Assembly (NCBI GenBank): GCA_032622095.1
Contig: CP136067.1
Span: 81,246,705-81,310,704, forward strand
Length of the DNA stretch: 64,000 bases
Origin: Siphonodentalium dalli
Taxonomy: Eukaryota; Mollusca; Scaphopoda; Gadilida; Siphonodentaliidae
Direction: 5' to 3'
The position numbers were made by a program, and so were the translations under genes. The notes below the pieces were generated by a model, which saw nothing but the letters and a program-made list of their open reading frames with translations, had not been told where the DNA came from and searched no databases. The stretch's first letter is position 1, and each line of letters opens with the position of its first letter. This document shows, in pieces, positions 24,993 through 54,742 of this stretch.

Positions 24993-25266
24993 CTAACTCT
25001 TTATTTACAAAATACTCATTGGCGAGTAGTCATCCATAGGAAATGTTCAGATAATAAGTTCAACAATCGGCCATAGGTAGTTTGTTGAATTTATTACCTG
25101 ACATTTCCCACCAAAGAATGTGAATCCTTCTGTACTTTTTATTAGATTTTCGTCTGTCTGCCATCTGCCTTTATTACCTGAACATCCCTCCAAATGAACC
25201 ATAGACAATTCCAGTGTATACTTTTATAAATGAATGGGAGAATACATTTAGTAAAGAAAGGGTTAA
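24993..25266. mobile_element. TTAA-type MITE of the AATGTTCA family
   Basis: The left end is CTAACTCTTTATTTACAAAA (degenerate TTAA); the right end is CATTTAGTAAAGAAAGGGTTAA. The centre is a palindrome built on GGAAATGTTCAGATAATAAG with TTCAACA and its inverse. Related copies lie at 18340-18465 and 48114-48246. Confidence 0.75.
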
Positions 25267-29374: not shown

Positions 29375-29565
29375 ACCTTCGGTTTAATCGGTCTTCGGAG
29401 TATAACATCTTCGGAGTATTAGACCTTCGGACTATTGGTCCTTCTGAGTGTAATACCTTTGGACTGTTATTACTTCGGAATATCGGACCTTCGGAGTATT
29501 TAGTCTTCGGAATATAGGACCTTCTGATTATCGACCTTCGAACTATTGGGTCTTCGGAATAAAGC
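29375..29565. repeat. CTTCGGA-rich short tandem repeat
   Basis: About twelve imperfect units of 15-18 bp share the core (C)CTTCGGA followed by ATAT/CTATT-like sequence. On the - strand this array starts about 25 bases downstream of the donor of the second PDZ exon. Confidence 0.8.
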
Positions 29566-29589: not shown

Positions 29590-32500
29590 TGCATAACTGT
29601 GAGTTGTAGGTTATTTACTGCACTTTTTATTAGCTGATGTGCCTGCATGTGTGTGAGATTCTGTGCATTTGTTCCTCCAATGGCCACGATTGCGTCCCCG
29701 TTGGTCAAATATTGGGCAGCTGGCGAACCTGACTCAATCTGAAATCAATAAAAAATTGTGATGTTACTTCAGTGTTTCAACAAATAAGTAACGTACAGTA
29801 ACGTATAATACGTAGCAACAAGCATGACGAATGACGAAATGTGCATTATAATAAATCAATATGAAAACCTCTTCTTTCCGTCCTGCAGACTGGCACACAG
29901 CCCAACTCTACGTGAACGTGATTCCTATTATAAAAGTCGTCATAGCCGAGTTGCACGATAGAGGCCTTGGACACCGACATCGCGGTCTGAAGAATATGGA
30001 GATGTCGCATGTTCCAACCAGGCGAACCAGGACATGGGCAAAAATCAGCTTCAAGTTCAAGGTTCATCTGAGTTATAATAGGGATATCACAATGTAAATG
30101 TGCCATTACGATGATACGATCGAAACATGACCATTTCCAACGTTCCATGCCCATGATAAATGGGGATTTGTTAAGGAATATGGAATCTTGATTTTCAAAT
30201 GTGTCAAACAGTGATTGAGCCAGCCCAGTCAGTAGGCCATGAGCACAAGTGTGTATAATATTGTTGTAAAGAGATAACTTCCAGTGGACATTCGTGCTTT
30301 CCTAGTCACCTGGTCCAATCTGAGGGATGATCGGTTGCTTGTATCAGACAGACTAATCTAATATAAGATAATCCATGTGTTGTGATCTGCCTGCCGTCTG
30401 GTCTGGTTGTAAGATATACATGAGATGTTTTATTGGGCCAATTTGTGACACCTTTTTACATTGAATCGGAGGAAACACAAAATTACAAAGTCTTAAAATT
30501 GGGATACGTTGGTAGTTTCGTGTACCAAAAGTATCAATTATGATGTTTTATCTAGCTTGTTTAGCAGGTAGACACACTTGGATACAGATAAAGTTTTTGT
30601 TATTTATATTTATGTTTTCGTTTTTGTTTTTGTTTAGAAATTTTGGAAATTGGAGATTCCATATCCCTTAAGAACTAGCCTAACCAAATTTTGGAGTCAA
30701 ATTAAAGGATTATGTTCACTTTTATTAGTAGTCACAGCAACAAATACATGGATGCAAAATATTAAGAGTATAATTCATGGTGGATTGTGTTAGAAATACT
30801 AAATGTGAAATTTATAGAGGTTTATAAAATCTATTTTTTCGAACACAATTTCAACAAACACAAGGTTCATATCTAAGAAAAAATATGGCAATGTGTACTG
30901 AACTCTGCGAATAATGATGAACAATAAAATAATATTCATATTTATCAAGCGTGCTTTGATAAAATTACTGAGAACCCATTGTTTACAAATGGTAGAGTAA
31001 CTTGCCTAACATTGCTGGTTTGGGGTGCAGTTTAGTGTTAATATATGCGAACAGTGGTGTTTTGTGAATCTCTTGAGAAAAAAAGAATTGTGTATTCCTC
31101 AATATGGGTATACCCTGCATCCTAGAAACTAGGTCACCAAATCAGGAGATAATATTATCATGGTTCAGCACATGCTCATCATAATCCCAGCTGGATTGAG
31201 TGAACAGTAACTTGACCCATCAAATTCAGCGTCCAAACATCATTACTGAGCAATCAAATCTACCATTTGTAAACAACTGTTTCAAGCCAAAAATCAAAAG
31301 AACACTCAAGAAATGTAAGTATATTTTGATTGTTCATCATTCTTCACAGTGTTCAGTACACATACCTATATTATTTTCTTTGATATGGACTTTGTGTTTG
31401 TTCAATTTCGGTTCGAAAAAATAGATTAAAAAAACTTCTACAAATTCCACATTTGGTTATTTCTAACATAATCCACCATGAATTATACTCTGAAAATGTT
31501 ACATCAATGGGTCTGGCTTTGATTTCTAATAAAAGTGAACATAATCCTTTATTTTGACTCCATCAAATGTGGGTTGAAAATGTGTTAGCAAAGTCATTAA
31601 CGCACATTACGAAACAATGGACACGTCATCTTTCGGAGAATACAGAGAAACAGAGAATGCAATCTCCATGCACACATATACTACAAATCAAATACAAAGA
31701 TTTCATCCTTTAATAACGTGTCACATTTATCAGGTGAAGGCCATTCTTCAGTTACCTTCACCTCTAGAATTCCACGGTGAACTCGCTCCCCGACTCTGGA
31801 ACACATTTAGCTCCCTGTTCCTTCAGGTGCCACACGCAGTGTCGAGACAATTAAGAGCAGCATTTGGCGATTACCAGATCTATAGAATTGAATGCAGTCT
31901 AAAAGGGAGAATTAGTTGGACAAAAACCTGGCTGACAACAGTCATCATCGTTGACAAAAATCACCCATTGGCCTTGCCAAGACGTGGCGTGATATCGTGA
32001 TGCTATTATTGAGTTATCTATTTTTGCTAATAAACAATCACAGCAACAAGGACATCACTGATTGATAAGGTATCGTTAGTACTGCGAGATGTTTGATAAA
32101 AAACCATACACGAAATAAAAACAAGAATTATCATGCATACCTGATATCTGATTGTGGTGTTAGCATTCATGCTTGTTTATGATTACAGACCTGCCACGCG
32201 AAAGCCCTTGTCTTACGATGAACGGATCCGACAATTGCAGAATGATTCATATTAAAGCCACATGGCGGTTTGCGCACCCAAATACTAATATTCGCGTCTG
32301 AATTTTTCCCGGTCGATCAATATCTGAACTACCTTTCTACGAGCTTTTTGTAACCCTAAAAGAAGCATTGGAGTAATGAAAATATAACTATGAACAGCCA
32401 CTTGCACGACACGGAACAGAAAAGAGCATTTATTCCTGATATGGTAGCAATGAAGAGCGATTGTTTGACTTCTGGCGAAAAAAAACGGCTGGAACGTGGA

Positions 32501-35500
32501 TGTGACTTTGGCAAGTGTTTTTCAGAGCATACGAATCCTGTATATCAATATTTCGTGTATTTATCGACCTATCGTATTCGTCCCTCCAAATTTCGCCGAC
32601 AAAATTTGAATGTCCGTTTAACAATTTTATTGACGGGAACTGTTCATAGAATTATTTCAACAAACGGCCTATGTATGTGGTCTACATGTATATAGAATAC
32701 ACACATAGTAGCCGAGAATACAAAATTTTCACCACGCGTGGAATTGTGGTTTTAACCACGAGCCTTTTGGTATTGAGAAAGTAAGAGTTGAGACCTTCAC
32801 CTAAAGTGAAGTGCATTATCAAGGAACAGATAATAACTAAGAAATATATTCCCCGCATTATGTTTTCGACTTTATAAGGTTCCATGTCAAAACTTCAAAC
32901 AGTTACCAGGTTTTGTACTGGTGGAATATGATACGGGCGTTAGCCCGAGCAGAGATTCATGTCGTGATCCCACGATGTAGATGCAGTTTGGTCTATTTGG
33001 GATTAATTGTCATTACTAGGCCATACCACGACCGTTTGTTTCACATGGAAACTACTCCACTGCACATAAAAACAACAGACCCCCGTCACGAAAACTAACT
33101 GACAAACATGCCCAGATACACGAATCCGACTAACCTCCCTGTCCATGCATCACATATCCGCGCTTATCGGAGGTTAGCATCAGGCCAGCGTTGTTGGACG
33201 GCTTAATTTGGTATAATACATAAATAATCAACTAATGTAGCTCGTACCCTGACCAACTCGTACCCTGCTGTTTTTCAGCAATCCATGGGGACAAAACGGT
33301 GGTATTTCAACTAAATAACGGACATACTATGATCAGGCACCAAGACTAAGACATATTACATCTTTAAAAAAAATTTAATCGCTTTAGTTAACTAAATAAC
33401 GGGCATTTTATAGCAGGGTACGAGTTGGTCAGGGCACGAGTTGACTCGCTCCCCTATAAATGAGGCACCACTTCGACTCCACGAAGCGAACACAAATCTC
33501 AGATAAAATTTCATTTACATCTAGCTCACCGATACGTGGCTGCGTGTAATATAAATGCAATGAATGGATGCGGGGAAGATTCTCTGCTCATATATAATCA
33601 GGTATTATACTAATGTACATGTAATTGGACGCGAACTACATGCACTTATTACATAAGGGTTACCCGGCACTACACATCGTTCATCTCTGTTGCGCGTCTC
33701 AGTATAGCTTACAAACAATGAGCTAATCGGGTATTGCATGAGAGTCACAGAGGCTGTTCTATATATAAAGAAGGGGAAGAAAATAGCTGGTATAAGAGAA
33801 TGAGACGAATGGGTTATTGATGGCTCGCATAGATGTTCGGTGCATCATGGATAACAGACTCTGACAAGCGGTATACAGTATACATATATATAGACCAGAC
33901 AAATGCAATTCTGTTATTCACTAATGAAAACACGATTCTAACTCTATTTTTAAAGCGACACACGCTACTCTAGTCTCAATATAAATCCAAAATGTTTTCC
34001 AGTCACGGTTCCTGATATCACAATAGTTCAACAAACCAGCAGATAGGTTCATATTGGACCTAAATATTCACATAGTTTCATATTGAACTTATTTGATTGT
34101 GAACTAAGCCCATTGTGGACTTATACCAGTGAAAACACATTGTAAAGAGCGTATATCTGGTAAGTATGTCCATGCACACAAAGCGTAATTAAGATTAAAA
34201 TAATGCCGATATGAGATTATTTGTGTTTCTGAACTAAGTTCAGTGTGAGCTTATTTTCAGGAAAACAGGCTGCATAAATACACTTATATCTGGATCCAGC
34301 ATTCCCTGGAGGAACTACAGATGGGCATGTCACAGGTGAGACCAATGTACACCCCCCCCCGTAATGAACTTTTTCTAAGTCGAAAAAGGGGGATAACTCT
34401 ACAAAAAAAGTCGGACAAGCCTCACAATCGCAGGTGCACAGTTTCCCATGGTACTAAATTTTCAAGAAAATTGATAAAACAAAATGTAGGAATAAAAGTT
34501 CGGACGTCCAGACGGATGGCTAGGCAGGCGGATGGACCGACAGACGGACGGCTAGACGGACGGACAAGCTGGTAACAGTATATACCCCTACAACTCGTTG
34601 CGGGGAGGGGGTATAAAAACATGTTGAAGATATAGAAAACCGTTTTCAACTTCCACAAAATGCTCTCTATTATACCTTATCAACAAAAAAATGAACAACG
34701 ATAACTTCAGAGGGATAGAACCCGAGGTGCTCAACCTCATGCGCAGACCATCTTTATTTTTACCACAAGGAAAGATCTGACAACGAACAAACTTTATTGT
34801 TAGATAGGGGTAGGAAAGAGTGTGTGTTTTCTTTGGGTGGGGGATAAATTCCATCACTCGATTAAGTCTGTTCGAGGCATATACAATCCTATACGAGTAT
34901 GTCAAGTGTTTTCTCGACCAATATATCGTGATGCTCGGAACGCGAAAAAAGCGAATAATTACTAAGTTTAATTTGAGGCTTAAAGCACATAGCGGTTTGC
35001 GCTCTAAAATAACCTGATAATATCAGGGGGGATTTTTTTTCCGAGCACGTATGCCGGAGTGGGTGGGTGGTCGATGGGACCAACAAACTATTTTTTTCCG
35101 CAACTCAAATGTTTTCCCTTCTTGCTTGTTCCCAAGTCTTTTTGACTGTTTTTGCAATGAGTTTGGCTTAAAACACCTTAGAATGTCAATATTAACATAA
35201 ATGAAAAAAATCATGATGATCAGACAAACAGTATAACCTGTAGCCCATGCTAATGGATTGAATTTTGAAATCCAAGATGGCCGCTGGCAGCGATGTTTTT
35301 TTTGGCCGAATGACCCCAAAATGACTAGTTCCTATTTACATGTCAATGTTAACATCCATGACAAATAGTATGCACATAAATTCATATACATTTTTTGGAC
35401 GCGGGGGGTGGGTGGGTCGCAACAAGGGTCGAAACGAAAAAATCAGCATACGTGCCTGAATTTTTTTTCCGACCCCCCCCCCCCCTGATAATATTCGCTT

Positions 35501-38500
35501 TTTAGTTTTTGCCGGTATCGAACTATAGGACGAATACTTGAACCACCTTTCTACGGGAGTTATATGTCACAGAAAGACGCATTGACGTCATAAACAATAC
35601 CACACTGAACGCGGTGTTTGTGTCCACAACAAACAACAGCCATGGGCACGACATGGGTCAATAAAGAGCGTTATTTATTATTATATTCTTGATATATTGT
35701 AGAAATAAAGAGCGTTATTTCACTTTTGTGCGAAAACTTGAAAACAGCAGAAAAAAATATTGTGACCATGCATGGCAAGTATTTTTCAGAGCATACGGAG
35801 CCGGTATATCAATATTTCGTGTTTGTCAACCTATATTATACCTCCTTCCAAATTACGTGGAGCAAATCTGGAAGTTCGAATGAGACATGTACGTTTATGT
35901 GCGCATTAATGTGTTGGCATTATATGATTTATATCGTCACACATCGTTGTTATATCAAACCTGGCGCCAATACTATAACAAAAATTATATAAGGTAAAAT
36001 GAAAGTCAGTGGTTTGTAACCATATAGGCTGGTTCTATTGATATTGTACGAAGCTAAAGTTTTACAAAATAAGAATCACATCACAAGAAAGCGCATGTGT
36101 CCTGCAGTATATTACTATAAAGTTTACTGTCTTGTAAATTACACGTGCAAAAGTTTATAGTATTGGTCCCAGATCCGCGATTGCCACGCTAAAAGGACAC
36201 GCCATGGTTTTCTTATTGGCCAACATGGGGTATTAAATATATTTTAGGATTTTTAATCAAACAAAATGTTTGAAATTATTATTATTATTATTATTATTAT
36301 TATTTATTATTATTAGATAAAATGCACGTAGACGCAGTACTCGACATGCGGATTAATTCGAAACAATTCGACGAATCTGTGTGGCCTTAGCGCACGTCAA
36401 TGGCTATGTATTTCTGCCGAAAATAAAGTTGTGTAAACAATGCATATATTACGGTCCCAACATGCATACTTGACATTATGAGAATGGAGGCATATGTTGG
36501 ATGAGTGGCAGGAACGGGTGTGTACCTCAATAGAAAGAAGTCTGTTTAGAACTCCGAGGTAATTATTATTATTCTGTCACGATGTTGAGCCACAAAAACA
36601 CCTATTTTATGTAGTCTCAAGTTTGTTCCAGTGTGGGTTTTAGAGTAGCTGTTTTATGGCTATCCATATAATAGACACCGGTTGTCGTTTTAGCTTTTTG
36701 GTCGATATATATCGGGTGGTGAGTTATTTTCATGTATTTGCCACACACACAGAAGGCAAACATTGCCAGGTATAACTTGATGTGCACATTATGTATAACA
36801 ACAGAGCATACTACTTGTATTTCAGACTAACTGCATTGTAATTCCATGGGACAGTTTCTGTCTTAATGAATATCGCTAATGGTTAATTAAGCTAACACTG
36901 ATTGTATTGATAGTTAATACATCCGACCACGTGAATTATTAAAGGGCGGGAATGACTCATATTACCGTTTCTATATGTGAACACATAATCGTTTAACGAC
37001 TGGCTGGTTTAGATAGTCTGCTGCATACGCAGATTTCCGTATACGTATGACCGATAGCTTGGCTTTGAGACGAACCGTTGCATACTCGTTGTTATACCAA
37101 GTCTTCTAGATAGACAGATTGATATGTTTATTAGCAAAGTACATATCAATCAGTAAACAAAACCGAGTGACAATTTATTAATGGTTATTATGATTGTTGT
37201 GTGTAATATATATATAATTATATATGTACTTTGCCTGGGATGGACATAGCCATGGGCCGGGCTGTCTTTCTGTCCCCCCCCCCCAGAACTATATTAATTA
37301 AAAAAATCTGACCTTGGCTGACAGGCACATGATTGTACTGCATGTATCATGTGAAATATTCATGTTGTGGGAATTTTTCACGGTGGAGTGAGCACTAATC
37401 TTTAATCCTCTGGGGCTTTTTTCTAATATAAATGATTGGTTGATTGTTTATTTGGCGAAATAGTGAAAATATATAATTATGTTTACATCAATTACATATA
37501 AGGATAGTATAACAGTATATCACCGGGGGGTGTCATAATATCGAGGAGTCTTCCTGTCAACCACTGGCGCATATGTGGTGACCAAGGCCTGATTATATTA
37601 TCAACGTATGACAACTGGAGGAATGTAACATTCTACTAACATCGATCGTACCACTCCATAGAAAACATCGTCAGAACTATTCGCACTTGTAAATATTTAC
37701 TACTCGAATCGGGACGCATCTATCTGCGATAAACTAACGAAAACTATTTCGCCATCGAGAGTCACTGCATTTAATTCATATATAAGAATGACGGTATGTG
37801 TTGTCAATTTGGATATACTATTTGTAAACAATTACTGCTTTGACAAGATTATTCTCCATTTCTATTTGATCACCATTCCGGAATGTTTCATATCACTATA
37901 AGTTATATCATTATTTGAGTTGCAGTTATCTGAGTTGATACCCTGTCTGAGACAGTTATAAACATAAATGCCACCCACGGTTATATGTGCAGGATGAGAT
38001 TCATTGTTATTTCAAGATATGGATCGGAAGAGAAGATAGGACTAGCGGTGTCGTTTTTCTGCGTTCAGAGATAATTGAGTACGGATTCGAGATTCAAATT
38101 TCATTTCGGAAGAGAAATATGGGTGAGAAGCTGTATTAAGTTTGATTTAATTAATGGTGATGCATATGTAGTCAGTGAGTACATTCCGAACAATATGGGT
38201 TATCGCAAGTCACTTGTTCTGGGTAAGAGCCAATGATTTTACTGGTTAGTTTTCGATTAAACTTTTACGAATCCCTTCCGATCGGAGTTCTTTTTTCTGA
38301 CCATCCAAAATTTAGGAAACTCAAACAAGGGTAATGATTCAAGGATTTTTATTCGAGCTATTGGTGTTTTAAATGTTTCTTTTTGGTGCCTATTACTACA
38401 GTTAAGATCAAACATGCTAATAAATACTCTGGGAATTTACCATTGTTTAATTCTAACATGAAAAGGGAAATATTGAGTTCGTGGATAACCCTCACTTTTA

Positions 38501-41500
38501 GAAATATTTTTTTTAAACAGGGGAACCGTGTAAGAGTTATATCTTTTATTAGACCCCCTTTTAACAAAGGAGTATAATAGAAGATATAACTCTCACACAG
38601 ATCCCCTGTTTAAAAAAATAAATCTAAAAGTGATAATACTGATTTGCACCCGTCCGTCCGTGCATGCGAACGGCTCCACGCACGTCCGTCCGATGTCTTT
38701 TCATGTCATAACTTGAACAGTAGTCATGCTCGGGTCACAGTGAAATTTGATATGAATGTTCACTACTATGAGAACATTCAATCGTGGTTTCCATCGTTTT
38801 GTTCGGATTTCCATTCTAGAGTTATTCATCTTTGTTTATCTGGAAATGTTGGCTTTTTGGTCCGTCCGATGAATGTTCAGGTCATGCTGTTCCAATCAAT
38901 GATAGTTCGGCAAAAGAAACTGAACTTGTAGAAGTCGTGGTCTGGCTGCAATGGAATATATTTTTCTGGATGGTGCCCTCTGTTTTCACTTGTCTGATGA
39001 ATTATGTACTTAGGCATCGTGATTGCTGTCTTTTCGTGCTTCGCTTTGTGGAACGTGAGAAGTCTTTTTAGGATGCAAGTATGATCGCTATACCGAGGAG
39101 GCAATGGCTCATAATTATAGGACGACCCTCACCTAACAGACGATGAGACAAAGGCGTTAAGTGAGCACTTGCCAGGAATAATAACAGCATCTGCTAATCT
39201 TTAGGGGAAGGTGACTATCATAGAAACTAGGGGCAAATTGCTAGATAGTATTCTGTGCGCACGGCGACCCGATGACGCGCCAAATAATGGATCTCTTTGA
39301 GGGTGGCTGCCACCGCACAAATATTAAAGGGTGTGTATGCGTTACAGATGAGTACCTGCGAACGACAAACGTAAACAAGATGATAACATTTGGCAATTGT
39401 CTTATCTACTTACCAGGCAAAATATTTAAGTGCTACCGTTAAGCACTTCAATAAGAATTTGTACCCTCAAATTGGCTGGCCGCATGCACCTATAACTACT
39501 AGATATATAGGTCCTCCGCTTGTCTTCTACCAATGGGTGATCAAAGTTGTCTTCTCTGCTTTATAGAATGGTAATAACAAACTTTAAATATGCAAAGAAG
39601 CACAACTGCTACATGTATATTATCTTGCAAAAATGTACCGATTTCGATAGAGTAATATAAGCCTGACCCTTAAAAGTGTATACAAGGTTATTTGAGTTAC
39701 ACATTTTTCTATTTCCGGCTTATATCCTTAATTTAATTATATCTGGCATTGACAGAAACGTATGCCCTTTTCTGTAATTTCTAGCCCTTGTATTATTTTT
39801 TCTTCTGAGCGCATGCAACGAATACGACCAGAGAACATCAAGGAGACCGTTCGGACATCGAAAACTTAAGCTCACTTATGGACTATTCCGGATGCCGGAC
39901 ACGCATAAGCCGAACGCCACCGAGATGATATTTCGGATGCTACACATATAATTACCTATGTTTTCATGCAATTATATTTGGAAAATTTGATGAGTGAGGT
40001 AGGTTTCTATTTATGTAGCTGATCTTGAAAATGGGTCTCAACCTCATCGAAGGAATTCAAGGTCCTTAAATTGGCAAGATGTGTCTGATTATCGAATTAA
40101 GTGTGGACATACATGGCCTTATTATTTGTGCGTCGTGTTCATTTACCGGTACTCTATAATAAAATTATTACTAACCATACAATTGCGTCTAGATTTATAA
40201 TGACTTTTTGGCTTGATATCTGGATTCCAGGAGAGGGTATCGTTAGTAGATGACCCTCATTCGTGACTGCGGAGGGTGATGTTGGTGAACTTCGGATTTC
40301 CAATTGCATCTATCCTACAGGACTAATCTAAATACCTATTTCACATTGACCTTGACAATGTCAAATGCAATATCTCTACTTTATTATATACTACATACAT
40401 GTATACACGATTCCATAACACTATACAATGATGTAATTCAGTACAGTGATTGTCAAGGAACCATCCATTGAGCAATATATAAGTAACACGACGCTCTGAT
40501 AATCGCACAGGATATGAGAGACTGATTGGCTAAGCCGTTATATATTTGATGTTGTTCGCCAGCATACCATTATGAGGTCAGTGACTGCTCACTATCGTCT
40601 AATGGATTGAATCAATATATAACTGATACTATCACAAGCTTTTTTTTTTATTAATACGAGCGATATATTATACCATACATTATTCACGTCATGTCTGTAA
40701 CCATTAGGTCTGGGAGCAGCGTGCATGTGCGAGCTTCCTGGGCCCTGTACTATAGATTTACAATAGCCGTGTTTGAACACGCGGACAGCGTTCGTCGGTA
40801 ATTTCACAGTCTTGTAAAGCTAGACTTGTGTTCTATAGTACTTGAGCAATTGTATTCATGTGAATTCCTTGCATTGGATATTGGAATTTAACAATAAGCG
40901 ATTACCCTTTTTCACACCATACATCGTTGTGAACTGACTTATATAATATTCTGGGAGAGCCATTCTGAAACTGGGATTCATTTCAGCAGGAAGCTGTGGT
41001 GAATGGGGTGTCCCGATGTTGCATCCTTTTGTTATTCTATAGTACTCGAATTGTCTAACTTGGGGAAAAACAAGAACTCGCTTGACGGGCTGATACATTA
41101 CCAACTTAGGGAGTTCCATAGTACAGAAATAACACACATCGGGTAGAACACGGTGTTAACATTACAAGTATACGAGGCTGAATTAGTGGTTGTCACCACA
41201 ATGAAACGCGTGCGAATGTCGATATGTCGGATTATCGCTTTGTGTATTGCGCACTCATGCATTAACCCTTTGTCGACGTGCGAAGTTTCACGGGGTCAAT
41301 AAAATCGTAGTCATATTGGGATGATGGGTTCAAATTACGCATGGGCGTAGATAGAAATATTTTGAGATGGGGTTCATAAACAGAGACACATTGGCTTTCA
41401 TAAATAAGGGTTTCCATATAAATTATGTTGTGACAGGGGCGATACTCACCAAATTACTCAACAATTGGGAATTTCAAGCAGGGACGTGTCGATGGGTGTT

Positions 41501-44500
41501 GTCGCATCACCATAATCTTCGTCCCAAAGTTCGTGATGATTGATTTATGGAGTTAAATGGCAATTAGTTGAGAAGTTTCGATCGGTTGGAATTGTTTGGT
41601 TGGGGATTTCTAACAGTTGGAAATCTTGAGTAACCATTGCAGATTTTCAACCGAATGGGGTGCAAATATAGTTTTCCGGACTCGGAAATAATATCTGGTT
41701 CAGAGAGGAGGTGCACTCGGGCAGCGGAGACATTATACGTGAATGTTACCGCGATTCCATGGTAGAAAATGGCACTGAATTGAAAATTAAGGCTGGATAA
41801 TAGGTTGTAATCATTACAATGGCTACATTTTCCAGCTAATGTAACTGCAAATTATACTTTATACCACTAGTATGATGTTTTCCTACATTCAGTGTAATTT
41901 TGGTTGTTAAATCTATGTTTCTCCTTAAACAAAATGTTACACAGACCCTTTGGAAAATATACTTGAAATATATATTTTCACCCTTTTAACTTGGAAATAT
42001 TTTTATCAGTCTATTATCTCCGGCAATTCAGTTTGTTTTCAATTATATTGTACATGTATCGAAATCGTACGTATACGACAACAAGTTAAAATTGCCCTGC
42101 TCAATCTGACAATATAATCACCATGTGTATGTTTTTCTGTCGATGGGGTTTATTTGTGATCACTCTATCCGGCTCTATCCCTTTGTGTTCGTACATACAT
42201 TGTTAAATATATTTGACCATGAACCATGTAAATACAAGGAAAGTCATGAAAAGCTATATATTGTCGTCTATGATGTAGGTCAATAAACATCTATCTCTTA
42301 TTAAGAGCGTTTTCGCTTATGATATTTTGTACTCGTGTTCAGCGTAAAATGTTGTAAGCGTTTGTGTATTTTCGCGATGCTTGTGCCATTGTGATTATGG
42401 TGCTCGCAAGTGGTTTTCATGTTCCCCATTGCCTATCATAACATTGACTTTATACATCCACTAAACCACTCGCCAACTGACTCAAATATATATATATATA
42501 TATCTAGGCATTACTATCCATTTATGTATGATATTAGAGTAAGTTCCCTTTACCCATTATCAAGCGTTCGCCTCCACGCGTACCAAAAGAAGATCCATAG
42601 TACTGGATTGTGTCTGTTCTTGTAAATGACGGGGAATCGCACACACTTGTAAATTACCGTATCCATAGTATTCGACAGTTTGTCCATGCACGTGTTCAAA
42701 CACGGCTATTGGAAATCTATAGTACAGCCCCAGATTAGATTCTACAATATGTACACTAGCTGAAACAGTTTCACTACCGCACAATTTGATCGTTAGTTTG
42801 ATTTATAAAAATGTTATTTTAATTTTATTTTCAATTAAATTTTTTGTTTAGATTGAACTCCTTACACAAATTAGTTTTCTTTTCTTTATTTTAATTAAAT
42901 TTAGTTCTTTTAATAAAAGTTTTGAAGAAAACAAAACTAACGCTGTTATAACATCCGCCGGTGTATCCCGAGTCACCACACCAAATCCAAAATGCACTTT
43001 CTGTAGATGTTCGAGTTTGATCACAAGTAGATAGCACAAATAGTAGTAATACTGATATAAATAAAACAAAATAAAGAGTATTATAAAGGTTCCGTCCTGC
43101 TGCACTGTTTGGAACCTAAATGCTTTAGTCCTCCTTGAATTATGACTAGAAAGAAATATATATCGATATGAAGATTTACACCCTGTTTCTGGGTCGATTT
43201 ACGCATAATAATTTCATGTCAGTTTAACCACGGGTGTGTTTGACACGGTACAAACAAAGGAATCCAAATGTCGAAATCGAGCCATCGCTTTTCAAGGCAA
43301 GCATATACGTTCGTAAAGGGCTTCCCCGTTCGTATATGTATTATGAAATGTATAAAACAGTCCAAGCAACAATGAAAATAGTACTTAACAAACTTTGCAT
43401 CATCAAGTCAATACTCTTGAGCAAGTAATACTACTTTTGAGTACAGGATCCGATCCTTATTCCATTCATTAAGGGTCAGATGCACGTTTTGCCAAAAAAT
43501 CCTGGTATTTCACAATGGATTTTCTCAAAATCTGTCCGAAATTTCTTTGTGAAATTTGGTACAAGTGATTATTGTGACACAATATTTAAGATTCATCGAA
43601 TTGGATATTATAGCCTCATTTACTTCACTCTTAAGGCATGAACAATATTTAAAATATCACTGTTTTCAGATACCAAGAACTTCTATAAAATGGATTTTTT
43701 TTCAAAAGTGCAGTTCATATATCCATGATATTATATCTGAAGATCATGAGAGGAGACTTAATTATTCTTGATTCGGGAAAGTTAATGGTAAAGGGCAACT
43801 ACCCATAAATAATTTTCTATATTTGAGAGTTTTCATGTCATAACTGTTGATCAATGAAAATTTGGGCTGAGATGAGTTCCGTGTCATGGGTTCATAACCA
43901 AGTTAATCTGACCACCATAGCTCTTAACACTTAGCGTGTATTTACGCTACGTACGCTAAATCGATGTCTGTGACTATTGTTCATTTATTTTGAACAAATA
44001 TTTCATTAAATTTACGCCATTAAAACGTCAAAGTGTCTTATTTATCTGGGACTATTTGTTTGCGCAGACAAACAACGCATAGTATACATGAAACGTCATG
44101 GCATGCATTATAGCAGCCGCTGTTAGTTTCACGTGCGATCTATTGATTTAAGCATGTTTGATGGAGGTTTTGGATCAAGTAATAAATATAATCTACAACT
44201 CGTCCCCAGTTTATAACGAAATTTATAAAACTCGTCCAGTAAATTACATGATGTAGGTCTGGACCCGTTTTGTATATTTCGCTATAAACTGGGACTCGTT
44301 GTAGATCCTCTATATATTGTATATGAATTATACACCTGAATATACAAGCTACATTAAATTTAAATGTACTTTTGGTAAGTTATAAAATATATCCTTTTGA
44401 TACATTGCAATATGTTTAAAGTATAAACTGAATGGCACTGATGGGAATTCAGTCTTATTTTAGTAAACGCTCAAGTTGAATATTGAGCTTTGAAATTGTG

Positions 44501-47500
44501 ATTAAATTAACTCGTTTGGATTGCTCGGTTCAAAAACCGTTTCGGATGAAATGGTAGAGCTATACGATTAATATAGCATATAGATACACGTCCAAAAACA
44601 AAGAATATTCTGAGTGCGATATAATGACACACTCATAACACCAATATGTGACATCACAATGGAGGATTCGTGACACATTGCATGTAATTAAAAATTATTG
44701 TAGTGGATTTGTGTTATTCAGGGATACGGCGCTGTCTTAAATTCATTGGGGAACATTCAGTGTGAACCGCGCAGTTCACACTGAATGTGCACCAACGACT
44801 ACAGTGCCGAATTCCCCAATAAAGAACACACCCACTACATTATTTTCTTATATTTATATCGGTTTTTGATGATTATTCCCATAAACAAGCTGAATGTATT
44901 CTTATTTATTTTCACAAAATCTGCCGAGCATTTGAGACTAGTCCACACAACACTTTAAGTCAGCCCAATATAAGATTTCCAAGCACTTAGCAACGATCAC
45001 GTGGTCGATATAAATAACTGGTTTCAAATTCAGCGGAACATTTAAAAGCACGTCCAATTATTCAGCTGACCGCTTCTAGTGATTAGATCAGATTATATCA
45101 ACAATTTGTGATGTCGTGTGTGTGTTACGGTCTGTGTTATTTGGATAATTATGATCGGGTGACCCAAATGGCAATTGATCAATCACCGAACAGGATTTAG
45201 TGTAACACAGACGGGTTATGTAAATATTTGCGAATATACAGCACCCCTGCGCCTTGAACGTAGTTATAAGTGTATCCTCAACAGAAATGCAGAAGAACTG
45301 TTTACAATCAGCGTATTTCATGAAATTCTGTGAACACACGGTATACGCCATATATACATTACACGCCTACCGATAAACGCATATATTTATCATGTTAACA
45401 ATACCCTAGTGTTCGGACACTTGCCAAAGTTGTCGATCGAGCGATAAAATTCTCAGAGAAGTCTGTTAACAACTTGTTAATAGATAAGAGTTATTTAAAG
45501 CTAAAATTTCTTAGTTTTTCGTTTATCTTTCCCCAAAGGAAATACCACTTGACGGAAACAGTTGCCGGTCATTTCAAGCAAATCCCCAATGTCACAACGA
45601 TACAATATTTGATACACTATTGCGGGGATTGTTTTCGCACCTGTGTCATTAATACAATCATGACCATGACGTCACTCCTGTGTTCATCGCGTTCAGTTTA
45701 GAGGATGATGGGTTGTTATTGTTATTTTACATACAACGATCCAGTATGTAATAACGGATGATCTCAATATACAATTCAATGAACAGTTATTTCACTGTGA
45801 ACATTTCATTTTATATGACTTTCATGTATAATACCATAATATCATCTATCAAGACAACGAGTTTCAATATCGCTTTGATAGCTACAGAAACATTTCAGAA
45901 AGGATATGCGTATAGAGATGGGTGGGGCGTCTTAAATGTACTTACATGTAAATTCTAGGTATGCTGTTTCGTGTACATTTTGTACTGATTTTTATTTCAG
46001 TCATTCAATTATAATTCTTCGCCAAATCCGGAATGTGCGCATAGATTATTCAGTACAACTGCCGAAAACTTCTGAGTATATTGGTTAACTCTTCGCAGAA
46101 GGAGCTCATTGTCGGTACGTCGAGTTCACCGACGGTTGGAAAAGCAATGGGTACTGCCTGTAATCCTGTATATTAAGTTGACAATGGGTGAAGAACTTCG
46201 GATGTCACGCCATGTGTGCAGCCAATACATGGGTCAGTGGATATGGCTGACCACATGGTACAACTCAGTTGGCTTAATCCAATTCGAATTATTCTATTCT
46301 GATCAGAGGTGACGCTTTGGACTCGGTCATATTTTAAGCCGGATATTAGATTCAATTTGTACTTTTATTACCAGCATCTCCACAATGTATTAACAAAGTG
46401 TCCGATTTATTCACAGAGTTTCACCATAAAATATTTTATATATTACAGACATTAAATACACGAATGTCTGATCACAGACATTTACATATGCACATGGGAA
46501 CAAGGTGCTAATTATTGTCTTGAAAATGTGTCTTTACAGTCTCAATTGACATATGTTATTAATCAAAGTGTTTTAGCTAGTGATATTGGTGACATGCATT
46601 ATGCACGTATATATAGCTCTCGTTGTATGGACTAGTTCATATACATGTATATGTGGCAATTTCATTATCACAATACCAGAATGGCAGCAGGTTTAAAACT
46701 CGATTGCCTGATTCATCTTATTTGTCGATATGGCAAATTAATTCGAACATCATGTTGCAAGTCATGTCATTCCATTGGAATTTATAACTGCTGGATAATT
46801 ATATGCAGTCTCCATCGTTGTTTGGTTGATTTGGTCACCACCTCCACCATGACATCCGACTTCCATTATAGGGTACCTATTCCTGTTCATCTTCCACGTC
46901 GCAGCCATCCAGTAATACGGGCTCGTGGAAGTTCTGCTGATTGTGAAGTTTGGTGGCATATTCTAGAGCCGATTGTGAGTTGATTACCAAATGGTGGGCT
47001 CCTTCACAGTCACACATGTCGTACGCTGATGTTCATTCGGATTTTGTGTTGTATATCCTGAACCAACCAGATATCATTGATTCGTATGTATTACCGATTG
47101 GAACTCTTGTATTTGCTTATTTGGTAAATCTTCCAACCATCCGGTAATGTTTACCTCATCTCGATTGAAGGTGCAATCATGTTTCTTTGGATCACAAGCG
47201 TGAAGTCTGAACGTTCTGTTGTTCTTCTCTCATGAAAGTAACTGACAACTGGTGGTGATCGAAGACGAAATGGTGCATTCTAGTCGCGACCACACCTATA
47301 TATGAGATCTGCAATGCACACCCTCCCCCAGAAACTCTCCCAAAATGTGAACTTGTCATCGAATCGGTACCAGAAACGATTTTGAACACACAGATGATTA
47401 TATCCGCACACACGACCTTGGTCGTGATAGGTCAGTTACATCTACTTGTACATGCATGTTCGTGATCTTAGATCTATCAGATTATATATGTTGTACATGT

Positions 47501-50500
47501 ACATGTACTTCACAGCCATTTCAGTTTTCGCCTTACAGCTGAATGACGCGGTATGGACAAATCAATAGTCGTGAGTCATATGGTGTGACTTCCCATATAT
47601 ATTATGTTTCAACTGGATGTCCTAATTCTAAATGTCGCTGAGTGCGACGTACATCTGGAACTGTTGATCTTTGAAGTTTCAAGATTCTTCCAAAACAATG
47701 AATGCCGATGGGCAAAGCTCAAACACCCTTTTCATTTTAATGAACTTTAATCACGGCCCTCTAAAGTCTACCATATCGCTGATTGCATTAACATATACTA
47801 TAGTCATTACTGCCCCGACCACTAACACTACCAGTTGGATTGTTTTACCCGTAGAATAGAATACTAAAGTAAATGTGCCAATTGACTCCAGACTCAGTTA
47901 CAGCTCAAAGGTGCATTCCATCTCACATTTCTCTCCTGCGTGGCTGATCTTGACGTATTGGGTCAGTGGCATTAATTAGCACACCGGCACCTGTTAGCCG
48001 CGACTGACTGATGATATTCGAATGTGGCATGTTGGTGAATGATAAAGTCATGTGCACAAAACACTTGTGGTATTCATATATATACCGATCAAGTTCATCT
48101 ACATGTTGGTAATTTAACCCTTTTCACCAAATACTCATGGAAGAGTAGTTAACTTGGCCAATGTTCAGATAGTAAGTTCAATAAAAAGGACACATGCCGT
48201 GTGTTGAAGTTATTATCTGAACATTTCCCAACAATGAATATGAATTAGTCTGCAGTTGTATTATATGTACCTGCAATGCCGTCAAGAAAACATAACGTTA
48301 CTAAAGGCAATTTTTCGTGGTCTTCGGTAAATCTGAATAATTTAAAACACGACAGTCATTATTTGCAGGGAGTATTTCATGCAGACCATACACTGGGCTG
48401 CATGTGTATTTAAATATAATTCAACTGTATGATTGCACGAATTATTGAAAAACAGCTATCTATGTTCTTGAATGTTCCATGCATATAAATATATATCGGT
48501 TATATTGATTCGCTGCCTCAGAAGGATGTTCATTGCTTCGACGTGTGCGAAAAAAAAATGCCATTTCTGATCGAAATGGTCACGTATCGATTGGAGTGGC
48601 ACATTCGGATGTAACTCAACTCAGAAATCGGATTGTGTGTGTAAAGCGCGCTCGTTGCATGCATGAATAAACACAAATAGAGACGATTGTGGCTATGCAT
48701 TGTACAAAAGATAATGAAAGTGTCAATGACACTGTAGCTCAACTTGGAAATGGGATCATGTCATATATTCCAGTCCATAGAGCGATAGGGAACTCGGACA
48801 GTTTATATGCTTAAGTAACTAGAGGTTACCCTGAAATACATAAACAGTTTTAGATTAATCGGATGAAAACTTTGACCGTAGTTGTTGTAAAACTAAAAGA
48901 AAAGGTAAAGTCCGAGACGGCTCCCATCCAGAGGTCACACCGAAGATCCATATGAAGTTTGTTGATGACCGGATGAGGGAGTTGACCTCTCGGGTGCGCC
49001 AAGGGATTCAGTCATACAAAGTGTCATGCATTTAGTCATGCAAAGAGTAAACTCCAAGATGGCTGCCGGCGGTCATGTTTTCTTTATCTAAAATCGTTCA
49101 AATGTTATAGCTCCTATCTAGAGGTGATCCAAAACATGCTTGTAAATTTTCAAAACAATTATTCAATAAATGCGGGTTGCAGGTGCGGCGATGGATTCAA
49201 CTTTGAAATGAAAGATGGCGGCCATGTTTTTTTTAACGAATTTCGAGAATAAAACGACGGTCACCCCGATGGTCCCTATATATGAAGTTCTGATGAGGCA
49301 GGTGGTCTGTAGGGTGGGCCGAAGAATTTAGTCATCAAAGAGTTGTTGTTGACGGACACACGCACACAAAGACGTCCCGACGGATGATGGACGCCAACCC
49401 ATGGCAATAGCTCAAACATGACGTCAAGTTGAGCTAAAAAGGAATATTTTGAAAAGTTTAATTTAGATTATTATTTTTTTTTTATCAAAAATCCAACTCA
49501 TGTATACAAACTTTGGTGGCGTCTAATGAATTACAATTTGTTTGGGAAGCGTCAGTTAGCGTGGGTAATATAATTCCAGAGAAGGACACATCCCCTTTCG
49601 GATGTAAGCCACTTTAATGGGGTTTGGTTTGTTTTGGGTTTATCGTCCTTTCAGCCACTAGGTCACCACGTTGTCAGTTTTATGAGTGGAGGGAACACCG
49701 AAAAGTTGGAAATCACTCCAGAAAACAGAAAGTACGCTCCCAGAAAGTAATTGACAAACTTGCCCATGTGCACCAATCATGTTACCGTCCGTTTGGTTTC
49801 AAATCAGCAACATTGATCACATTGAAGCAAATAGTTTCGCGACATCTCATAGCTTATAACTATAAAAAAAGTACTACAATGTGGAGTCATGAGCAGTCGT
49901 TCCAACTTGGTCTTGCCATTAGCCAAAGATACTTGCAAGTGTCTGGTATAGTGACCCATGTGCACACACACTCATTTCAGTGGAGACTTGGGTGGTCGGG
50001 TGTATATAATAATGATATGTCTCATGCGCCAGTTTGTGGGTATGTTTACTTTGATTGAAGTTTACTGCAAATTTGGCAATCTCCAAGTGGCCCATTATGA
50101 ATGTCTTAATTATAGATGTTGGAAAAGTTGGAAAGACAATCCGAAAAGATCAGGTCAAGGTGGGTGCAAACGAATGTTCTCAAAATTGAAATTTGAGGCT
50201 GCCATGCACCCAAGGGAGGGGCAATTGGAAATTCGAAGTTCACCTGCACTCAAACCGTGACAAACTTGGTATGTCACAACAAATATACATGCACGTTAGA
50301 ACTGTCTTATTATGTTATATTATAGCATTTATGTTTTATTATAGCAATCATGTAATCTATTAACTACATTAATTTTCTCTGTTGACTATCGTATTATTCT
50401 GGCCAAGCGGCAGTGGGAATTAATCTATATTTAAGAGGAGTTGGACATAACTAGACAAAAGGGTTTTGGATCTGTTGCTTTATATACCTCTTATATTTCG

Positions 50501-50659
50501 ACAGAACCGAATCGATTAGCCAGGCTGCGAGTACACATACACTGAGCCTACCTTTTTCACCGATAACTGCATTCTGAAGTCCCTGCCTCCCTGAAGTCGG
50601 AAGCCCCATGGCTGCGAGGTACTGCTCCTCTGCAAGGACACTACTGTAGGGGTCATCAT
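29590..50659 (-). CDS. ALP/Enigma/ZASP-type PDZ protein, first two coding exons
   Basis: Exon 1 is 50659 down to 50552 (start ATGATG, 36 codons, donor GTAGGC). Exon 2 is 29738 down to 29590 (acceptor GATTTCAG, donor GTGAGT, 149 bases, ending with two bases of a split codon). The junction is in phase 0. Exon 1 reads to QPWGFRLQGGRDFRMQLSVK; PWGF is the carboxylate-binding loop typical of ALP/Enigma family PDZ domains. Exon 2 supplies IESGSPAAQYLTNGDAIVAI and the helix LTHMQAHQLIKSA, then LQLTV. Together these form one full N-terminal PDZ domain, and the intron position matches PDLIM genes, where exon 1 ends just before the xxxGSxAA segment. Such proteins bind alpha-actinin at Z-discs and actin bundles. 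An in-frame TAA lies upstream of the ATG. Later exons (ZM motif, LIM domains) should lie on the - strand below 29590 but were not found. Intron 1 is 20.8 kb. Confidence 0.9.
29749..30681. other. Start of PDZ intron 1 side, no feature
   Basis: The stretch is intronic to the PDZ gene. The 102-codon - strand frame at 29846-30154 has no PDZ similarity and no donor in frame, so it is not an exon. Confidence 0.4.
30682..31575. mobile_element. Long-TIR (foldback) element of about 0.9 kb
   Basis: The left arm (about 30682-30985) and right arm (about 31255-31575) are inverted copies over most of their length: GGAGTCAAATTAAAGG / CCTTTATTTTGACTCC, AGTATAATTCATGGTGGATT and its complement, and GAATGATGAACAAT-like blocks. 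A further inner pair is TTGTTTACAAATGGTAGA / TCTACCATTTGTAAACAA. The middle is non-coding. Confidence 0.8.
31576..32252. other. Spacer with unassigned 127-codon frame
   Basis: A + frame at 31617-32000 starts with ATG and includes PRLWNTFSSLFLQVPHAVSR. It resembles no family I know and has no splice partner. An AATAAA lies about 30 bases after its stop. It may be chance. Confidence 0.3.
32253..32615 (+). repeat. Dispersed repeat, copy A of a direct pair
   Basis: Shared in order with 34978-35890: CGGTTTGCGC near the start, AACTACCTTTCTACG-like, TTTTTCAGAGCATACG, and TATATCAATATTTCGTGT near the end. Class unknown. Confidence 0.65.
32616..33240. other. Spacer, nothing recognised
   Basis: No exon or terminal repeat was identified. 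A fragment near 33080-33150 faintly resembles the dispersed repeat at 49615-49850. Confidence 0.35.
33241..33440. mobile_element. 200 bp MITE with 29 bp TIRs
   Basis: The left arm CTCGTACCCTGACCAACTCG then TACCCTGCT is matched at the right by its inverse with a single difference. Each arm itself contains CTCGTACCCTG twice. No coding capacity. Confidence 0.85.
33441..34347. other. Spacer with a partial tandem duplication
   Basis: Two diverged units (about 34100-34160 and 34232-34293) share GAACTAAG, AAAACA and ATATCTGG in order. No gene was seen. Confidence 0.4.
34348..34615 (+). mobile_element. Short element with C-rich/G-rich ends
   Basis: The left end TACACCCCCCCCCCGTAATG and right end GTTGCGGGGAGGGGGTATA are imperfect inverted repeats. 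The interior has a GACGGACGGACGG-type run. Elements of this layout are common in molluscan genomes; the class is uncertain. Confidence 0.6.
34978..35890 (+). repeat. Dispersed repeat, copy B, with an insertion
   Basis: The copy matches 32253-32615 on both sides of an insert (35016-35496). Its downstream half holds two AATAAAGAGCGTTATTT units 44 bp apart. Confidence 0.6.
35016..35496. mobile_element. TIR element carrying a pearl-like unit
   Basis: The left end (TATCAGGGGGG, a T-run, CCGAGCACGTATGCC) is inverted at the right (GCATACGTGCCTGAA, a T-run, a C-run, TGATAATA). Inside, 35200-35370 is one inverted unit of the 162 bp pearl repeat (ATCCAAGATGGCCGCTGGCA, GACCCCAAAATGACTAG). Its capture by a different TIR element is inference. 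Confidence 0.6.
36274..36316. repeat. (ATT)n microsatellite
   Basis: About fourteen ATT units with one interruption. Confidence 0.95.
36317..38492. other. Spacer, no recognised gene
   Basis: PDZ-gene intron 1 sequence. No exon or terminal repeat was found over about 2.2 kb; there is a small TA-rich run at 37208-37230 and a C-run at 37275. Confidence 0.4.
38493..38632. repeat. Hairpin of 140 bp
   Basis: Arms of about 60 bp: CACTTTTAGAAATATTTTTT with AAACAGGGGAACCGTGTAAG on the left, and the inverted CTCACACAGATCCCCTGTTT to TCTAAAAGTG on the right. MITE-like. Confidence 0.8.
38633..40740. other. Spacer, no recognised gene
   Basis: Begins with a GTCCGTCCG-type run at 38650-38692. The open frames at 38644-39071 overlap in several registers and have no recognised domain. 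Confidence 0.4.
40741..42731. mobile_element. 2 kb element with degenerate TIRs and CTATAGTAC motifs
   Basis: The left arm (CCTGTACTATAGATTTACAA, TAGCCGTGTTTGAACACG) is inverted at the right (CGTGTTCAAACACGGCTA, TTGGAAATCTATAGTACAG). CTATAGTAC or CCATAGTAC recurs at about 40748, 40832, 41037, 41116, 42595, 42663 and 42717. The interior has no recognised transposase. Confidence 0.6.
42732..43499. other. Spacer, nothing recognised
   Basis: AT-rich intron DNA with T-rich runs near 42820-42880. Confidence 0.4.
43500..43925 (-). repeat. Dispersed repeat, copy B (inverted)
   Basis: Inverse match to 9185-9716, sharing GATTTTCTCAAAATCTGTC, CAGTTCATATATCCATGAT and GAAGATCATGAGAGG in order. It lacks an inner stretch present in copy A. 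Confidence 0.7.
44191..44306. repeat. Foldback with ACAACTCGT ends
   Basis: The left arm ATCTACAACTCGTCCCCAGT, then TTATAACGAAATTTATAAAA, is matched at the right by its inverse ending GGACTCGTTGTAGAT. Possibly of one family with 5088-5222. Confidence 0.8.
44699..44839. repeat. 140 bp foldback with perfect central hairpin
   Basis: The outer ends TGTAGTGG and CCCACTACA are inverted. The centre CATTCAGTGTGAAC / GTTCACACTGAATG is a perfect 14 bp stem around CGCGCA. Confidence 0.8.
44840..46876. other. Spacer, no recognised gene
   Basis: PDZ-gene intron 1 DNA. Several 60-87 codon frames are present, none with a known domain or paired splice sites. Confidence 0.4.
46877..47420 (-). pseudogene. 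Decayed coding remnant, possibly kelch-like
   Basis: Three neighbouring open pieces on the - strand look coding but lie in different frames. They are a segment with NRFWYRFDDKFTFWESFWG, a segment HACDPKKHDCTFNRDEVNIT continuing GWLEDLPN, and a last segment with INSQSALEYATKLHNQQ ending DVEDEQE at a TAG (46877-46879). The GWLEDLP motif with upstream Cys residues is reminiscent of kelch beta-propeller proteins, which is a weak call. It lies inside intron 1 of the PDZ gene on the same strand and could be a dead retrocopy or transposon gene. Confidence 0.3.
47421..48113. other. Spacer, nothing recognised
   Basis: No exon or terminal repeat was identified. Confidence 0.4.
48114..48246 (+). mobile_element. 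Partial TTAA MITE of the AATGTTCA family
   Basis: Left end TTAACCCTTTTCACCAAATA, then CAATGTTCAGATAGTAAGTT and its inverse AGTTATTATCTGAACATTTC. The right terminus is not clear. Confidence 0.65.
48713..49440 (-). mobile_element. Pearl/helentron-like tandem-repeat element, copy 3
   Basis: Read on the - strand it begins TTTTTAGCTCAACTTGACGT, with GGTTGGCGTCCATCATCCG-like sequence, and ends GTTGAGCTACAGTGTCATTG followed by ACACTTTCATT. It has the same ends as 729-2526 and 7479-8563 and about three diverged internal units. A block AAGATGGCGGC lies at 49212. Confidence 0.75.
49600..50300 (+). other. Probable dispersed molluscan-type repeat
   Basis: The start GGTTTGGTTTGTTTTGGGTT then TATCGTCC, with the following TGAGTGGAGGGAACACC, resembles a dispersed repeat I associate with molluscan genomes. 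The 144-codon frame at 49624-50058 runs over it and is probably not a gene. Confidence 0.3.
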
Positions 50660-53214: not shown

Positions 53215-54666
53215 GGATAGGATAGGATAGGATAATTTTAGTTACAATATACACACATGGAAAGTACAATTACAAATAAATATAATATTGATAGACTATA
53301 CATGTATATTGCTAGGGGTGATATAGTCATGACTGACTGTCTTCCTATCACCCCTGGGTGTGGTGACAGATTATATGATGAAGATGGCCGAATTAATTTT
53401 ATTGTTTTTAGGTTACGTTTATCGTGTGCAGACTGGTTTTTTTGTATATATAGGCGTTGTTAGGGCGATGGTACGAAAAGTGGTTCATATGTATGGGCAC
53501 CTACTTGGTCGATATACTGAATGAATACTATGAATATTCATGTGTGAGTGGAACCGAGTAGGAATAATGTGAGTGAGGTTTTGGGAATGTTTTTTGTTTT
53601 TGTTATCAGAAAATTATATATCGTTTGTGCAATCAGGGCATCTTCGGTTTTTGCATCGCACGCTAGCTGGATAGGTATTAATAATATCCGTTTTCAAACG
53701 TTTTCGGAACACATGTCTTGATTGTTTAGAGGTATATTTACTTTCAAGGGAATTCCACATAAAGGGGAATGAATGGTATGGGAGAACTTTAGAAAAAGAG
53801 ATGGTCCTGAATTTTTTTTTGTACTATAGGATTAAGTTGTCGTCTATTTGGTTCCGCTCTCTTGTCATACATACCATAAAAAGACACTGGTAAGCGATCG
53901 TAGTACCAATCATGCATGAAAATGGATGCATGTAATTTATGTAAATCATTTATTTTTAAAATGTTTTCTTGTTTGAAAAGAGGATCGGTGTGACTTCTAT
54001 ATTTTTTGTTACATATAATTCTCATGGCTCGTTTTTGTAATAAATATAGTTTCTTCACTGCTGGCACATGTCCCCATATTTGGATGCCATAAACTAAGTG
54101 GCTTTGAATTAGGGCGAAGTATAATGTTTTGAGAGCCTTGCTCGGGAGAAAATGTTTAACTTTATTAATGCAATAAATTGCATGTGCCATTTTTGAGCAT
54201 ACAATAGAAATGTGTTTATTAAAGGTCAGGTTTTCATCTATATGGATACCTAAAAATTTGGCAGACGATTCGCTCCGCATGTTCCCTATCCGTAGAAGTT
54301 CGGCTCCATTGAGATATATTTTAATTGTATTCCATTTTTTGTCATTGTTTTGTGGATGCAAGAGCATATAATTGCTTTTGTTAGCATTGATGGCTAGTTT
54401 GTTGCAGCAACACCAGTCAGATAGATTTCTTAATTCGTTATTGACATAACTTTGGATTAACGCTTCATTTTGTCCACTGGCCATAAGGGTTGTATCGTCG
54501 GCATATGATAAGAGATCCATAGTAGTTGCATTTGACATATCGTTCACGTAGAGGAGAAAAATTATGGGCCCGAGTAAGGAGCCCTGAGGAACACCACATG
54601 ATGTTTTTAGGAGATTTGACTTGCTTCCATTGAATTCTACGTATTGTCGTCTCTCATTGAGATCGC
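53215..54666 (-). mobile_element. 5'-truncated non-LTR retrotransposon
   Basis: The 5' end is cut inside the reverse transcriptase. The 3' end, at low coordinates, has about 570 bp of untranslated sequence ending in a (TATCC)n tail (read on + as ATAGG repeats at 53212-53233). It is bracketed by the 76 bp duplication, so the whole insertion is defined. Confidence 0.9.
53789..54665 (-). pseudogene. Reverse transcriptase C-terminal part, open but truncated
   Basis: About 290 codons are open on the - strand. From the 5' break it reads DLNERRQYVEFNGS, SCGVPQGSLLGPIIFLLYVN, the catalytic LLSYADDTTLMASG, the FLGIHIDENLTFNKHI block, KTLYFALIQSHLVYGIQIWG and LLQKRAMRIICNKKYRSHT, ending HLFF and a stop. 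These are the palm and thumb of a Jockey/CR1-superfamily LINE. The N-terminal endonuclease and the RT fingers are missing because of 5' truncation, so it cannot be active. The frame has no stop, so the insertion is fairly young. It copies itself by target-primed reverse transcription when complete. Confidence 0.9.
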
Positions 54667-54742
54667 TTATTTGTTGAATTGCCTAAATTTGCCAGTCCTT
54701 TTGCAGAAATGACTGAATTTTAGTGCCAGTCATTTGGCCATA
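54667..54742. repeat. Right copy of 76 bp target-site duplication
   Basis: Pairs with 53139-53214. It belongs to the subterminal region of the surrounding integrase-type transposon. Confidence 0.9.

Follow-up and report, generated by a model that had tools for sequence, protein, structure and literature searches.

The DNA analysed here, which we call the window, is a 64,000-nucleotide stretch, C7:81246705-81310704, from an assembly that comprises 9 contigs and 2.23 Gb and is probably that of an animal, to judge by its gene content. Its minus strand carries two short exons that together encode a PDZ domain. Exon 1 (50552-50659, minus, 108 nt; MMTPTVVSLQRSSTSQPWGFRLQGGRDFRMQLSVKK) holds the first part of the domain, including the PWGFRLQGG loop; it opens with ATG ATG and ends after a whole codon, in phase 0, at a GTAGGC donor. 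We infer that it contains the start codon and is the first coding exon. Exon 2 (29590-29738, minus, 149 nt; IESGSPAAQYLTNGDAIVAIGGTNAQNLTHMQAHQLIKSAVNNLQLTVM) holds the remaining part of the domain. It is preceded by TTTATTGATTTCAG, with TTTCAG as the acceptor, and its 3' end reads CA followed by a GTGAGT donor, which places the next intron in phase 2. The intron between the two exons (29739-50551, minus) is rich in repeats, has GT/AG ends, lies in phase 0 and measures 20,813 nt, in agreement with the 20.8 kb given in an earlier note on this DNA.

That note had also claimed that the two exons join in phase 0 as one PDZ domain with the PWGF loop, and this claim is borne out by the coordinates, the intron ends and Pfam. 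Joined, the exons encode 85 residues that match the Pfam PDZ model at 2.2e-17, with 2-81 of its 81 positions aligned, whereas exon 2 by itself reaches 5.9e-10 and exon 1 by itself has an E value of 0.11, under the cut-off. Neither exon is visible as a long ORF, as had been noticed before; the open frames around them span 54 and 52 aa. When the joined protein was searched against PDB for the PDLIM, LDB3 and Zasp relatives suggested for it, the top match was LDB3/ZASP (2e-19) and the best 16 of 60 rows were all PDLIM/LDB3. A Zasp PDZ is defined as a PDZ with an N-terminal PWGFRLxGG (PMC3591300), and the PWGFRLQGG of exon 1, the Pfam match and the PDB rows all agree with that definition. We scored splice sites with matrices and ranked them within the minus strand of the window: the exon 1 donor came 14th and the exon 2 donor 87th among 3612 GT, and the intron acceptor 76th among 3049 AG.

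Exons standing 20.8 kb apart could in principle belong to different genes and join by chance, a case that the earlier note had raised itself. Taken separately to PDB, however, each half ranked ZASP/PDLIM chains first. Exon 1 found LDB3 at 1.4e-5, with PDLIM/LDB3 entries in the leading 16 of 19 rows; exon 2 found LDB3 at 8.5e-8, with the family in the best 7 of 60 rows and other PDZ proteins mixed in thereafter. The halves are also complementary parts of one domain and match in phase. A search of the 2.23 Gb genome (38 candidates scored) gave E<=0.001 at these two places only, and among the matches listed at E<=10 there was no other PDZ match on C7 within ~47 Mb and no further PDZ half nearby. 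Because the nearest other listed C7 match is ~47 Mb off, no alternative partner was found for either half, and we consider a chance junction of two genes extremely improbable.

Intron position among Zasp-like PDZ genes

PDZ relatives elsewhere in the genome came from two match lists (36 and 45 rows) that include several half-domains. We fetched the exon neighbourhoods of eight Zasp-like loci and read their boundaries, which gave seven complete pairs, all on C5 (58.4, 110.03, 110.16, 116.4, 156.8, 182.29 and 182.35 Mb), and one lone exon 1 on C4. Exons 1 and 2 were paired by strand and proximity, and at C5:156.8 Mb exon 1 was trimmed without a confirmed start codon. The comparison took only matches resembling Zasp-type half-PDZ exons, setting aside the unsplit PDZ exons of a group on C9 and single matches on C1, C2, C5, C7, C8 and C9. 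The C9 group (C9:29609156-30254328) comprises 17 listed PDZ matches, 15 of them equal in score, with frames mostly of 112 aa; many lie ~9.75 kb apart, 11 on the plus and 6 on the minus strand, in an apparent tandem array with inverted ends.

In all eight Zasp-like pairs, the window's included, the PDZ is cut at the same alignment position, behind the L-(S/T)-(V/I)-type strand that comes after PWGFRLQGG, and exon 2 is entered in phase 0 and left in phase 2. Exon 2 is 149 nt long in three of these pairs and 152 nt in five, so that the C5 paralogs resemble the window's gene in intron site, in both phases and in an exon 2 of 149-152 nt. In the window the intron falls after ...LSVKK and before IESGS, which aligns with LTISR/ITPGS of human LDB3. 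Human PDLIM genes have their PDZ split at the same place. The intron lengths of the seven paralogs are 8,815, 9,894, 14,678, 19,006, 24,117, 31,382 and 74,895 nt; the window's intron ranks fifth shortest among the eight, near the middle of the lengths seen in the family here. A PDZ split by a huge intron, which the earlier note had implied to be odd, is thus normal for the Zasp-like PDZ genes compared in this genome.

The window's joined PDZ is 33-48% identical to those of the seven paralogs, the nearest complete ones reaching 44-48%. The PDZs at 116.4 and 156.8 Mb are the least similar to it. In PDB the 116.4 Mb domain finds Shroom4 best and ZASP next, and the 58.4 Mb domain is clearly ZASP/PDLIM-like. 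Against human LDB3, the window's domain is the closest of the eight (49% identity, the others 35-46%). Since the paralogs are only 33-48% identical to the window's domain and yet share the intron site, we take them to be old and the intron to predate their separation. Judged from these alignments, it appears to be an old family intron that the window's gene inherited, and the split PDZ an ordinary gene layout.

SYNPO2 is the same protein as myopodin, which is counted among the bearers of a Zasp-like PDZ (PMC3591300). Passages of one paper describe the human SYNPO2 PDZ as "in part encoded by exon 1" and report that a transcript with exons 1 and 2, skipping 3 to 5, gives a complete PDZ, while another passage has exon 1 encode the PDZ (PMC10778272). 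A direct statement of the intron position in the PDLIM family was not found in the literature searched, which included te Velthuis et al. 2007 (PMC1781342) and PMC9751615.

Repeats of the intron and the window

The earlier note described the intron as filled with transposons, with at least ten inverted-repeat elements and a coding-like remnant. By self-comparison we count seven separate inverted-repeat spans in it, each up to 2.5 kb and fewer than the ten claimed, against a mean of 0.24 (range 0 to 2) in dinucleotide shuffles (n=50). A list of 16 pairs takes in several nested parts of a single element, as well as pairs that are probably due to chance. By the same count the first 20.8 kb of the window holds 8 spans and the last 20.8 kb holds 9, the last stretch overlapping the intron and sharing three of its 9 spans with it. 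With 8 and 9 spans in these end stretches, the intron's repeats are real but of background density, not concentrated there.

Two of the repeats were followed across the genome. A transposon-like element at 40745-42727 (1,983 bp, with 37-nt terminal inverted repeats) has copies dispersed genome-wide, on other contigs too, and the full or nearly full-length ones are 88-95% identical. A fold-back element at 30684-31572 (889 bp, arms of ~313 nt at 80%) has dispersed copies on other contigs, the full-length ones at 84-88% identity. Both copy numbers are lower bounds, since scoring covered 40 of 1171 candidates for the first element and 40 of 2311 for the second. Further inverted-repeat spans lie at 33241-33440, 38492-38633 (84% self-complementary), 44181-44318, 44692-44846 and 48154-48231, the last with related repeats at 18229-18460 and 24994-25252. 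The description of the intron therefore stands in that dispersed transposon-like repeats, of which two families were tested, are present, but not in any special density, which is ordinary for the window. The coding-like remnant was not recovered: none of 13 stop-to-stop ORFs of >=100 aa overlapping 29590-50659 reached the Pfam cut-off, and the ORF at 49618-50058 (plus) gave three weak Pfam matches, the best at E 0.036. The family intron has most likely lengthened here as dispersed repeats inserted into it, at a density that is ordinary for the genome.

Several other features of the window were observed. A 164-bp tandem array of ten copies stands near its left end; sites of this array and related pieces lie at 820-2423, 7479-8563, 35183-35372 and 48713-49442, those inside the intron being inverted. 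A 43-bp tandem repeat (22208-24063, 44 copies) coincides with the window's strongest strand asymmetry, with a GC skew of 0.316 and an AT skew of -0.365 over 22001-24000. Two repeat pairs, 12523-12930 with 60986-61393 (98% identical) and 13207-13734 with 63455-63989 (84% identical), are spaced ~48-50 kb apart with their order kept, and are copies of partly self-complementary elements. Upstream of exon 1 and outside the intron, a reverse transcriptase fragment, which we read as of the non-LTR type, lies at 53789-54682 (minus; Pfam RVT_1 8.2e-15). Besides exon 1 and this fragment, regular expressions found two PWGF-like, one ZM-like and two YxDD-like matches in the window; we regard these as chance, save for that at 59679-59690 (minus), possibly a second piece of reverse transcriptase. 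An Rfam scan of the window at the gathering threshold and a tRNA scan of the window were both empty.

The search for ZM and LIM exons

Having named an ALP/ZASP-type gene, the earlier note expected LIM exons to the left on the minus strand. We ran a half-LIM regular expression over the window, and used LIM sequences of PDLIM1 and PDLIM5 together with ZM strings as tblastn queries against the window and the 200 kb downstream of it (264 kb). Nothing convincing for a LIM or ZM exon emerged by tblastn in this range, and the LIM exons expected there were not recognised. Three kinds of candidate were rejected. The sole half-LIM match in the window (44753-44839, minus) is intronic, a chance match in the inverted repeat at 44692-44846, and is without the second C..C of the finger. 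Weak LIM matches by tblastn (best E 0.38 in 264 kb, with at most 15 stretches per query) were without the H..C..C..C pattern. A ZM-like string at 29385-29420, which begins 170 nt beyond exon 2 and scored E 3.6 and 6.9 over the 264 kb, falls inside a degenerate tandem repeat. This repeat, built on 16/32-bp CTTCGGA-based units, occupies 29393-29558, ~30 nt past the exon 2 donor, and creates a false ZM-like frame.

Genome-wide, the LIM profile PF00412 gave 130 matches at E<=10 (150 of 235 candidates scored), and none among those listed lies on the minus strand of C7 between 59.0 Mb and the window's gene. An absent LIM match is not proof of an absent LIM, as LIM exons broken up by introns may escape such a search; even on C5, LIM1 scored weakly in its first half, at E 0.87 in one search and 2.38 in another. 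The clearest ALP/Enigma (PDLIM5-type) LIM exons form a cluster at C5:182.24 Mb, on another chromosome. The ZM-family profile PF15936 gave 7 genome matches at E<=10, six on C5 and one on C6; none was on C7 at this threshold, and a motif this short may go unnoticed. The profile did work elsewhere, serving as a positive control: it scored over the cut-off 3' of three C5 split-PDZ genes and more weakly 3' of a fourth, and in this these four paralogs differ from the window's gene.

Exons past exon 2 were also sought among ORFs of >=130 aa in the 264 kb (25 listed), eight of which, outside the window, were put to Pfam. These comprised one GPCR, two retrotransposon pieces (one below the cut-off) and five ORFs for which Pfam gave nothing at E<=0.01; a PDB comparison of one of these five gave no meaningful match either. 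The only cellular gene recognised was that rhodopsin-family receptor (GPCR) gene, on the opposite strand 166 kb downstream. No exon after exon 2 was recognised among the long ORFs examined in the 264 kb, and our gene model is therefore incomplete.

Two other accounts of the locus were weighed. The gene could be a full ALP/Enigma gene whose ZM and LIM exons lie more than ~230 kb downstream or were missed as intron-split. Introns in this genome can reach 74.9 kb within a single PDZ, and a weak LIM half like that of C5 could escape a search that scored 150 of 235 candidates. We nonetheless find this account doubtful, given that the window and the next 200 kb are without a convincing LIM or ZM, that PF15936 is silent on C7 yet works behind the C5 genes, that no listed LIM match lies on C7 minus from 59.0 Mb to the window's gene and that a GPCR gene, though possibly a nested one, intervenes on the opposite strand. 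Alternatively, the locus could be an incomplete copy or the remnant of a dying gene, in which the PDZ exons are intact but no working gene lies behind them, in keeping with the missing downstream exon and with the mere 44-48% identity of the closest complete paralogs. Against this, an unconstrained copy so diverged is expected to have decayed, whereas both exons keep an open frame, good scores are seen at all three splice sites, the length of exon 2 and both phases agree with the paralogs, and the joined PDZ is, of the eight, the nearest to human LDB3. We judge such a fragment improbable.

Kinship, function and meaning

We conclude, with a probability of roughly 0.9, that a Zasp-type PDZ gene of a large animal genome begins its coding region with 50552-50659 and 29590-29738 as exons 1 and 2, separated by an old family intron expanded by repeats. 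Of the label ALP/ZASP-type, the part that holds is the PDZ, which is of Zasp/ALP type; for membership of ALP/Enigma, no LIM or ZM was recognised. An N-terminal Zasp-type PDZ, one mark of that family, is present, its N-terminal position depending on the start codon chosen for exon 1. A C-terminal LIM in the same gene, another mark, was not seen in the window, in the next 200 kb or in the C7 listing. On sequence grounds we file the gene as a putative Zasp-type PDZ gene, and since no LIM or ZM piece was recognised, the encoded protein is probably without LIM domains.

If this reading is right, exons 1 and 2 would be spliced together in the mRNA and the joined module would fold as a PDZ. By analogy with Zasp52, its PWGFRLxGG may bind alpha-actinin, and the protein would act as a cytoskeletal scaffold. 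Passages of two papers implicate PWGFRL(xGG) PDZ domains in alpha-actinin binding (PMC5081203, PMC3591300); according to parts of the former, the Zasp52 PDZ proper binds weakly and full strength requires a C-terminal extension (PMC5081203), of which no counterpart was identified for the window's gene. Fly Zasp proteins without LIM are described, in passages of PMC6910826, as limiting Z-disc growth because they can be recruited via their ZM motif and are unable to recruit. Of this scheme, the PDZ part alone appears to be supported for the window's gene.

The best sequence matches are ZASP/Cypher (LDB3) and the other ALP/Enigma PDLIM proteins, which share the N-terminal PDZ with PWGFRLQGG; these have ZM or LIM, whereas none was recognised for the window's gene. 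Drosophila Zasp66 and Zasp67 are given as LIM-less ALP/Enigma paralogs in passages of PMC3591300 and PMC6910826, and are called insect-specific in the latter. They and the window's gene are alike in having a Zasp-type PDZ, apparently no LIM, and a LIM-bearing paralog in the genome, but the fly proteins retain a ZM motif and none was recognised here. SYNPO2/myopodin and CHAP are described, in parts of PMC3591300 and PMC10778272, as having a Zasp-like PDZ without LIM or ZM, and resemble the window's gene, for which LIM and ZM were not recognised either; the SYNPO2 PDZ, too, is reported to have just a part of it in exon 1. The window's PDZ, in contrast, scores highest with LDB3 in PDB, in a comparison of the PDZ part alone. 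Tentatively, then, the gene might encode a Zasp-type PDZ protein without LIM or ZM, part of a lineage-specific expansion that arose apart from fly Zasp66/67, and possibly an alpha-actinin competitor limiting LIM-bearing Zasp assemblies. This expansion would take in no fewer than eight Zasp-like PDZ genes of the split kind, of which one chromosome carries seven.

The exon pair is true and hard to see in raw sequence, and its biology is ordinary. The gene structure alone matters little, as the intron site is common to the family and the intron's length and repeat load are ordinary in this genome. The split PDZ does serve as an example of a domain that ORF-based annotation would miss, the longer of the open frames around its halves being 54 aa.

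A by-product, the genome's set of Zasp-like PDZ genes, is of more interest than the intron. Two opposed Zasp-like PDZ genes (C5:109995954-110033852 minus and 110162621-110218669 plus) lie ~130 kb apart. The ZM-family match 3' of the plus-strand gene is over the cut-off and that of the minus-strand gene below it; no LIM near either was among the matches listed. At C5:182352728-182238822 (minus, 114 kb), an ALP-like unit stands directly upstream of an Enigma-like unit on the same strand, and LIM exons are present here, whereas none was recognised for the window's gene. The ALP-like unit has a PDZ, a ZM and one LIM1 in two pieces, the second of which reads into a stop; the tail of human PDLIM1 is as long as the tail of this LIM1. 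The Enigma-like unit has a PDZ, a ZM and three LIM pieces. Two genes in tandem, or a single gene that has an internal promoter, could account for the locus, and this head-to-tail arrangement is relevant to the question of how ALP and Enigma came to be separate subfamilies.
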